In this document: one piece after another, positions 10,797 through 12,766 of the stretch | Layout of the letters: every line of letters starts with the position of its first letter | Numbering within the stretch: the first letter of the stretch is position 1 | Assembly (NCBI GenBank): GCA_020848195.1 | Contig: JADLAP010000121.1 | Span: forward strand, 1 to 33,085 | Length of the DNA stretch: 33,085 nt | Origin: Phycisphaeraceae bacterium | Lineage (GTDB): Bacteria; Planctomycetota; Phycisphaerae; Phycisphaerales; Phycisphaeraceae | Direction of reading: 5' to 3' | The notes under the pieces: generated by a model | Told to the model about the DNA's origin: nothing | Database searches by the model: none | Seen by the model: the letters and a program-made list of their open reading frames with translations, nothing else | Position numbers and translations under genes: made by a program

Positions 10797-11141
10797 TCAT
10801 CTCGATTCCTCATCAAGCACGTGATCCAGCGCACGGGCCAGTGAGGGCAGATCCTTTTGCACCGTATTCCATAGGGTTGCAAGGTCGATGTCGAAATACG
10901 CGTGAATCAACCGATTTCGCATGCCGATGATCGCCATCCAGGGAATGGCGGGGTATGTCTGTCGGGTTGATGGGGATGTGCGTGCCGCCGCTTCGCCAAT
11001 GATTTCGATGCATTTGACGAGGGCGAACACCAGTTTGTCGTCGCGGTCAAACGCAGATCGGTCTATTCCCGCCACAAACTCCAACGCCTTGTGCGTGGCG
11101 TCGCGCATGTGACGGAGCCGGATTTCGTCTTCAGGCGGCAA
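10797..11141 (-). CDS. hepT: HepT-like ribonuclease toxin (DUF86)
   Basis: The 114-residue protein is an all-helical HEPN protein. R-N-R-L-I-H-A-Y fits the Rx4HxY RNase motif of HepT. In known pairs, the partner MntA silences HepT by adding AMP to this tyrosine. The start codon is TTG, preceded by AAGGTG. The N-terminus EDEIRLRHMRDATHKALEF matches the family start, so the later ATG (11108) would cut off conserved residues. The gene overlaps the end of mntA by 11 bp, which implies translational coupling. I infer function from family resemblance and gene order. Confidence 0.85.
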   Translation of the reverse strand: MPPEDEIRLRHMRDATHKALEFVAGIDRSAFDRDDKLVFALVKCIEIIGEAAARTSPSTRQTYPAIPWMAIIGMRNRLIHAYFDIDLATLWNTVQKDLPSLARALDHVLDEESR

Positions 11142-11430
11142 ATTGCACCTTGGCCTCGGCCAGCACCTGGTCGCGGAAATACCGGCTCAGTTCGGCCGGT
11201 GTTCTCAGGTCCACCTGACGCCCGACAATGGCGGTCAGTTCCTGTTCCATGATGGCCAGTGTGAAGTACCCGATTTCCGCGTCCGGCTGGAACTCCACGA
11301 GCATGTCCACGTCGCTGTCCGAGCCGAAGTCGCCATGAAGGATGGAGCCGAACAGCGAAAGTCTGGCGATGGGATATCTCCGGCAGAACCGGGCAATCGC
11401 TTCCTGATCAATGTTCGGCATCGCAGACAT
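11131..11430 (-). CDS. mntA: MntA-like nucleotidyltransferase antitoxin
   Basis: The 99-residue protein is a minimal nucleotidyltransferase with the motif FGSILHGDFGSDSDVDML (27-44), giving the GSx10DxD active site (D40, D42). It lies upstream of and overlaps hepT, the classic HepT/MntA layout. An upstream extension of the frame overlaps the cysE coding region and is not family-like, so Met at 11430 is used; 11421 is an alternative. The gap to the cysE stop is 20 bp, so the pair may share the cysE transcript. Confidence 0.87.
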   Translation of the reverse strand: MSAMPNIDQEAIARFCRRYPIARLSLFGSILHGDFGSDSDVDMLVEFQPDAEIGYFTLAIMEQELTAIVGRQVDLRTPAELSRYFRDQVLAEAKVQFAA

Positions 11431-11450
11431 ATCGACATTGTAACCTGAGC

Positions 11451-12434
11451 TTACGCCGACGGGCTGTCGAGGTCGCCGTTGCGTTGGGGTTTGCGCGGCC
11501 GGGGACGGATTTCGAGTTCCTGGGTTTTCATGGTGACGGTGTGCCAGGGTTCGACGGACTTGGTGAGGAAGACGGAGCCGCCGATGACGCAGCCTTCGCC
11601 GATGGTGATGTCGCCGAGGATGATGGCGCCGCCGTAGAGGGTGACGTCGTTGCCGATGGTGGGGTGACGTTTTCGTCCGCGCCACGACTGGCCGCCCTTG
11701 GTGGACAGTGCGCCGAGTGTCACGCCCTGATAGACCTTGACGTGATCGCCGAGGACGCAGGTTTCGCCGATGACGACGCCGGTGCCGTGGTCGATGAAGA
11801 ACGACCGGCCGATGGTCGCGCCGGGGTGGATGTCGATGCCGGTTTCGTTGTGCGCGTACTCGGACATGATCCGGGGCAGCAGGGGGACGCCGAGGACGTG
11901 CAGTTCATGGGCGACGCGGTGGATGAAGGTGGCGTCGACGCCGGGGTAGCAGAAGATGGTTTCGTCGATGCTGCCGGCGGCGGGATCGCCGTCGAAGGCG
12001 GCCTGGACATCGCTGGCCATGACATCGCGCAGCGCGGGGATCCGGCCGAGGAAGTCGTCGGTGAGCTTGGCGGCCTTGTGGTCGCACAGGTCGCACGCGT
12101 CGCCCCGGCCCTGGGCCTGATGATTGGCGTCGTGACGCAGGGCCTGGCGAACCTGTTCGTACAACTGCCCGCGCAGGCAATTCACCAGTTCTCCGACGTG
12201 GAACCGGATGGTGTCGGAGGTCAGCCTCTGATCGTCGAAGAAGCCGGGGAAGACGACGCGGCGGACGAGTTCGATGATGTCGATGGTTCGGCCGCGATGG
12301 GGGAGGAAGGTGGCGTCGAGATGGTGGAGCGAAGGAAGCTGGCGATAGCTTTGCAGGATCGCGTCGACCATCTCGCCCAGGGGCGCTCGGTTCGCGGCGG
12401 CGGAAGTTTGATTGTCGTCGTGCGTGCTTGTCAT
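11451..12434 (-). CDS. cysE: Serine O-acetyltransferase
   Basis: The 327-residue protein makes O-acetylserine from serine and acetyl-CoA, the first step of cysteine synthesis. The core has an alpha-helical N-terminal domain and the left-handed beta-helix of the hexapeptide family: HPGATIGRSFFIDHGTGVVI, then GETCVLGDHVKVYQGVTLGA, and NDVTLYGGAIILGDITIGEG. The catalytic His and Asp lie in the RSFFIDHG stretch. A CDLCDHKAAK segment in the middle may bind metal. ATG 12434 is chosen because the frame further upstream runs over the RNA terminator. TAACAT ends 7 nt before it. Confidence 0.93.
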   Translation of the reverse strand: MTSTHDDNQTSAAANRAPLGEMVDAILQSYRQLPSLHHLDATFLPHRGRTIDIIELVRRVVFPGFFDDQRLTSDTIRFHVGELVNCLRGQLYEQVRQALRHDANHQAQGRGDACDLCDHKAAKLTDDFLGRIPALRDVMASDVQAAFDGDPAAGSIDETIFCYPGVDATFIHRVAHELHVLGVPLLPRIMSEYAHNETGIDIHPGATIGRSFFIDHGTGVVIGETCVLGDHVKVYQGVTLGALSTKGGQSWRGRKRHPTIGNDVTLYGGAIILGDITIGEGCVIGGSVFLTKSVEPWHTVTMKTQELEIRPRPRKPQRNGDLDSPSA

Positions 12435-12441
12435 GACTGAT

Positions 12442-12447
12442 ATGTTA
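12442..12447 (-). promoter_or_regulatory. -10-like box before cysE
   Basis: TAACAT (minus strand) lies 7 nt upstream of the cysE ATG and just downstream of the terminator at 12452-12481. No SD is seen. It could give cysE its own leaderless start independent of the upstream RNA. Confidence 0.3.
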
Positions 12448-12451
12448 GCGC

Positions 12452-12481
12452 AAAGAAAAACGGCCCGCCATGTGGCGAGCC
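12452..12481 (-). terminator. Intrinsic terminator of the structured RNA
   Basis: On the minus strand an 8-bp stem GGCTCGCC/GGCGGGCC (one G-U) with loop ACAT is followed by GTTTTTCTTT. It lies 18 nt upstream of the cysE start. An upstream segment (12506-12517, minus CGGCCCATGTGG) can pair with the same sequence (12461-12475), so two hairpins compete. Confidence 0.75.
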
Positions 12482-12492
12482 GCGTGTAAAAG

Positions 12493-12693
12493 GATTGCTC
12501 CCCATCCACATGGGCCGGACGGCGTAGTTCGCTCGAACCCCATGAATAGGTGGGTGCGTTGCCGAGTCGTCCCTGTCTTCCACTCGATGGTGGCTTGACA
12601 TTCGCGCCCGAAACCGGCTCCCGTGGGGTTCAGCAAGGTTCGAGGCGATGACTATGGACGCCGAAGATCGAACCCCGCAGACAAAGAGCAATC
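12493..12693 (-). ncRNA. Candidate structured RNA with rod-like fold (6S-like layout, unassigned)
   Basis: No protein is supported here, but the minus strand folds into nested long-range helices. Closing stem: GATTGCTC (12686-12693) with GAGCAATC (12493-12500), perfect. Inside it: CGGCGT (12658-12663) with ACGCCG (12520-12525); AGT with ACT; CTCGAACC (12637-12644) with GGTTCGAG (12532-12539), perfect; then 12603-12609 with 12552-12558 (one mismatch) and a CCAC/GTGG hairpin (12580-12593). It has a perfect TATAAT upstream (12717-12722) and an intrinsic terminator downstream. A bulged rod of about 200 nt with paired ends is the architecture of 6S RNA. I cannot confirm that family from sequence. 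tmRNA, RNase P RNA and SRP RNA signatures were looked for and not found. Confidence 0.55.
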
Positions 12694-12716
12694 TTGTTCG
12701 GATGTCAACTGCGGCC

Positions 12717-12722
12717 ATTATA
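12717..12722 (-). promoter_or_regulatory. -10 element of the structured RNA promoter
   Basis: A perfect TATAAT on the minus strand would start transcription near 12709, 16 nt before the closing stem. The -35 is poor: GTTCTC or TGTTCT at 17-18 bp spacing. Confidence 0.5.
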
Positions 12723-12766
12723 CCCCGGGGCCGATGCGCGAGAACAGAGAAGTGCAAAAGAATCGT

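Follow-up and report, generated by a model that had tools for sequence, protein, structure and literature searches.

The minus-strand segment 12493-12693 of a 33,085-nt stretch of DNA from a Phycisphaeraceae bacterium (contig JADLAP010000121.1; hereafter the window) is, judged from its sequence, a bacterial 6S RNA and thus belongs to an established family. 6S RNA is a widespread bacterial small RNA and a global transcription regulator that turns off RNA polymerase once growth stops. Its exit from RNA polymerase has, to our knowledge, been examined in few model species only. The whole explanation put forward here, a single-copy ssrS gene with its own TATAAT box and terminator, located next to cysE and with a proposed mode of polymerase holding and release, is almost certainly correct. 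Transcription, polymerase binding, product-RNA synthesis and release from the enzyme are what we infer by analogy from family membership.

At a permissive threshold, the Rfam 6S/SsrS model (RF00013) matched the window over 187 of its 187 positions, from 12686 to 12499 on the minus strand, with a score of 41.1 bits and an E-value of 6.5e-7. Scanning the window with Rfam defaults brought up no family, because this score falls just under the 46.4-bit gathering score, which is a curation cut-off and not a biological feature. Neither a tmRNA or tRNA nor any other credible Rfam family was found in the window, where the best other match reached 17.5 bits. An earlier note on this DNA had described an unassigned structured RNA resembling 6S RNA in its layout, and had reported the absence of tmRNA signatures. 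The resemblance proved correct, with an end-to-end match to RF00013, and 6S was the only credible family when this model and the whole Rfam set were searched. The RNA is structured, as proposed, but it is not unassigned, since it can be placed in RF00013 below the gathering score. On this comparison it is a genuine 6S RNA of an ordinary kind that default cut-offs overlook.

The fold agrees in detail with the earlier description of a bulged rod of about 200 nt with pairing ends, and the two perfect 8-bp stems then proposed are both present (Table 1). The predicted structure of the segment 12460-12710 (minus strand) has a free energy of -105.7 kcal/mol, as compared to -89.8 +/- 4.6 kcal/mol for dinucleotide shuffles (z = -3.45), and 0 of 200 shuffled sequences folded as well. 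The Rfam 6S pairing was carried over from the window onto 38 orthologues in a plain MAFFT alignment. Under this pairing 75.1% of the cells are paired, versus 36-45% when the partners are slid along the alignment. Cells with a double change numbered 186, against 86 in shuffled and 76-99 in slid controls, and the covariation score of 0.271 exceeded that of the shuffled controls (0.172) and those of the slid ones (at most 0.105). The closing stem, helix P2, the central bubble and the distal stem are kept by compensatory change; collecting homologues and testing their covariation, as the earlier note had suggested, has thus revealed covarying pairs of the Rfam structure. The helices of the closing stem are the most variable, with a paired-cell share of 66-71% for the two long ones, a lower value due to the poor alignment of these helices in several rows. 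An all-pairs covariation test of the raw MAFFT alignment retained only two pairs at E < 0.05. This test is weak here because conserved pairs have little power and because some rows are shifted by one base in the central bubble. It was replaced by counts directed by the structure and by an analysis of the bubble with anchored rows.

The elements of the locus are listed in Table 1. The perfect TATAAT expected ahead of the RNA is exact, and 28 of 41 orthologues carry an exact copy in the 60 nt upstream, where 0.12 would be expected. A simple promoter scan detected no sigma-70 -35/-10 pair, and the promoter therefore rests on the -10 box and on its conservation. The intrinsic terminator predicted after the RNA was also recovered, as a hairpin followed by a T-rich tail. 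On sequence evidence, these elements delimit a small-RNA gene of about 180-200 nt with its own promoter and terminator. Many Phycisphaerae 6S genes have a conserved GACAAGTGAAGAT-like box after the -10 box and ahead of the 6S body, outside the Rfam model. It can be recognized as a pattern in 19 of 41 orthologues (for example L006, L017, L069 and L073) and has diverged in the window.

Table 1. Features of the 6S locus in the window.
Feature	Position	Strand	Basis or remark
-10 promoter box TATAAT	12717..12722	-	exact match; kept upstream of orthologues
Presumed 5' leader, from transcription start to 6S body	12694..12712	-	start inferred from the -10 box
6S RNA body	12493..12693	-	RF00013 match and order-specific model R1
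Closing stem, 5' arm GATTGCTC	12686..12693	-	pairs with 12493-12500
Closing stem, 3' arm GAGCAATC	12493..12500	-	pairs with 12686-12693
Helix P2, 5' strand CTCGAACC, predicted pRNA (product RNA) template	12637..12644	-	near invariant among orthologues
Helix P2, 3' strand GGTTCGAG	12532..12539	-	pairs with 12637-12644
Alternative helix, 5' strand GAACCCCA, in the 5' central bubble	12624..12631	-	covariation in 58 orthologues; folding with blocked template
Alternative helix, 3' strand TGGGGTTC, overlapping the P2 3' strand	12535..12542	-	covariation and folding
6S gene terminator (intrinsic, stem-loop)	12460..12483	-	10 pairs, 8 of them G-C; T-rich tail after
cysE, serine acetyltransferase-like, hexapeptide repeats	11451..12434	-	Pfam Hexapep; gene order kept in relatives

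A 108-aa reading frame (12431-12757, minus strand) is open across the whole region and could have indicated a protein-coding gene. However, the corresponding ORF has no Pfam match and its frame, interrupted by stop codons in the orthologues, stays open in only 4 of 43 of them. This ORF was rejected on both grounds, and the chance that a coding gene is conserved across the region, which would have contradicted the earlier note, appears negligible.

6S RNA is common in Planctomycetota according to our survey, yet in Phycisphaerae it often lies under the default detection score. RF00013 matches were obtained in at least 28 of 61 genomes (that of the window and 60 relatives; best score 69.2 bits) and in at least 132 of 294 sampled Planctomycetota genomes (81 above the cut-off; best score 86.9 bits), both counts being lower bounds because the strict filters missed even the window copy. 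As the whole-genome search with RF00013 lost this copy to a prefilter, we built an order-specific model, R1, from 18 orthologues including the window. R1 matched the window over the full model length with 185 bits, the window having been in the training set, and found exactly one 6S copy in the genome to which the window belongs. The class sample holds 48 genomes of this order, the window's own included, and in these R1 found 37 copies. R1 scores are high by construction, since the model was trained partly on the same sequences; RF00013 provides the independent evidence. Further 6S candidates were observed in other orders of the class (L140-L152), some of them longer (up to about 250 nt) and several under the Rfam cut-off. 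A planctomycete genome paper reported no 6S RNA in Thermogutta and cited Pirellula and Rhodopirellula as lacking it too (PMC5673643).

The position of the terminator, close ahead of cysE, had led the earlier note to consider a second view, an attenuator leader for cysE. Here this rival was taken as a transcription attenuator or riboswitch leader controlling cysE by means of the terminator, which lies about 20 nt ahead of the start of that gene. The order of the two genes is indeed conserved: of the 28 loci found by RF00013 alone, 22 have cysE downstream in the same orientation. Starting from cysE instead, 6S was found directly upstream at 16 of the 20 planctomycete loci and at none of the 60 loci taken from other phyla (the 6S-gathered and cysE-gathered sets share some genomes). 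The RNA is not found only as the leader of a regulated gene, however. cysE is divergent from 6S in one of the 28 loci (L028), and five have no cysE in the flank that was fetched (L016-L018, L024 and L010); L010 lies at a contig end and so carries no information on this point, leaving four. The existence of 6S loci without cysE nearby, or divergent from it, therefore speaks against the role of a cysE attenuator. The 6S-to-cysE distance also varies widely between loci, and the fold covaries as 6S and matches no riboswitch family. An attenuator is thus very improbable, and the 6S-cysE link is, as far as gene order and sequence tell, a lineage-specific arrangement.

The same co-directional neighbourhood would also be compatible with some 6S transcripts reading through the terminator and coupling cysE output to 6S, which would be an addition to the 6S identity. 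Such read-through seems rather unlikely, as a strong terminator separates the two genes and neighbourhood alone is no demonstration of co-transcription. Just downstream of cysE, a HepT-like ribonuclease gene (Pfam PF01934; 10797-11141, minus strand) adjoins an ORF (11131-11685, minus strand) that resembles an MNT-type nucleotidyltransferase by eye; the two form a probable HepT/MntA toxin-antitoxin pair.

Within the 6S RNA, the 3' strand of P2 (xUGGGGUUCGAG) is complementary both to CUCGAACC, the presumed product-RNA template in P2, and to GAACCCCA in the 5' central bubble. The second pairing defines an alternative helix, which was analyzed in 58 sequences aligned on the CC run and GGTT and not on the covarying bases, with seven rows set by hand. 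At the pairs k3 and k4 of this helix, C-G, U-A and A-U replace one another and all 58 sequences are canonical, and at k5 (A-U, U-A, G-C and C-G) 52 of 58 are canonical. Pairs k3 to k6 covary above a tree-based null in which the changes of each column were re-placed independently (p_G 0.0003-0.0033). The 7-bp register of the helix is 93.7% canonical, whereas slid registers reach at most 66.7%. The shared GG/UUC positions give no covariation evidence because they are invariant.

Folding predicts a swap between the two helices. When a 14-nt stretch of template was blocked, P2 in the window fell from 0.99 to 0.00 and the alternative helix rose from 0.00 to 0.99; averaged over 48 sequences, P2 went from 0.76 to 0.00 and the alternative helix from 0.18 to 0.72. 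Some sequences, such as L045, L049, L062 and L075, did not refold to the alternative helix with the template blocked. Covariation and the predicted swap both point to a 5' bubble that is complementary to the P2 3' strand and whose pairing excludes P2. Covariation by itself would fit either a switch to a release state or a short helix that the ground state already contains.

The xGGGG strand could instead pair with CCCACC in a hairpin of the 3' central bubble, the release mode of E. coli 6S, and a 4-bp version of such a hairpin is possible in 38 of 57 sequences if the best of three registers is taken. However, the partner of CCCACC varies together with the 5' bubble (A-U, U-A, G-C, C-G), while CCCACC itself, being nearly invariant, does not covary with this partner. 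We consider this hairpin improbable, and retain pairing with the 5' bubble. In four sequences from other planctomycete classes (L161, L172, L178 and L188), an E. coli-like complementary stretch occurs inside the 3' bubble (CCTGAACCCATCGGTTCAGG in L188). Judging by these sequences, release strategies may differ within Planctomycetota.

By analogy with studied systems, the window's 6S RNA would imitate an open promoter and, in stationary phase, keep the housekeeping RNA polymerase holoenzyme bound. The polymerase would then copy a short product RNA (about AAGGUUCGAG...) off the CUCGAACC strand of helix P2, from a start placed, again by analogy, near 12635-12637; the template role of CTCGAACC is predicted from B. 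subtilis and E. coli 6S RNA. Copying would free the P2 3' strand UGGGGUUCGAG, which could re-pair with GAACCCCA in the 5' central bubble, leading to bubble collapse and release. Covariation and modelled folding suggest that the alternative helix probably helps 6S RNA to leave the polymerase, and its covariation offers an evolutionary handle on this exit. In studied 6S RNAs, the product RNA is copied from the 5' bubble and the P2 5' strand, P2 opens and the enzyme is freed (PMC8876501). A "central bubble collapse helix", in which the P2 3' strand pairs with the distal 5' bubble, has been inferred in B. subtilis and A. aeolicus (PMC8876501), and in the open-access literature searched a single paper employs this name. 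It is fairly likely that our data provide covariation evidence, in a lineage where 6S and cysE are linked, for a helix otherwise inferred in the open-access literature only in B. subtilis and Aquifex.

Compared with known systems, the window's RNA shares with RF00013 a full-length match, the closing stem, P2 and distal stem, covarying pairs, a promoter and terminator, and a central bubble with the GGGAGC...GCACCCACCU motifs; it differs in scoring 5 bits under the gathering cut-off. Its downstream neighbour is cysE, unlike that of gammaproteobacterial 6S, which is ygfA. As in B. subtilis 6S-1 and A. aeolicus 6S, the P2 3' strand is able to pair with the distal 5' bubble to the exclusion of P2, but the collapse helix was deduced there from probing and mutants (PMC8876501) and here from covariation across an order. 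E. coli 6S RNA has in common the overall rod with its central bubble and P2. On release, however, its 3' bubble folds internally into a 9-bp hairpin (PMC8876501), whereas the covarying partner found here is located in the 5' bubble.
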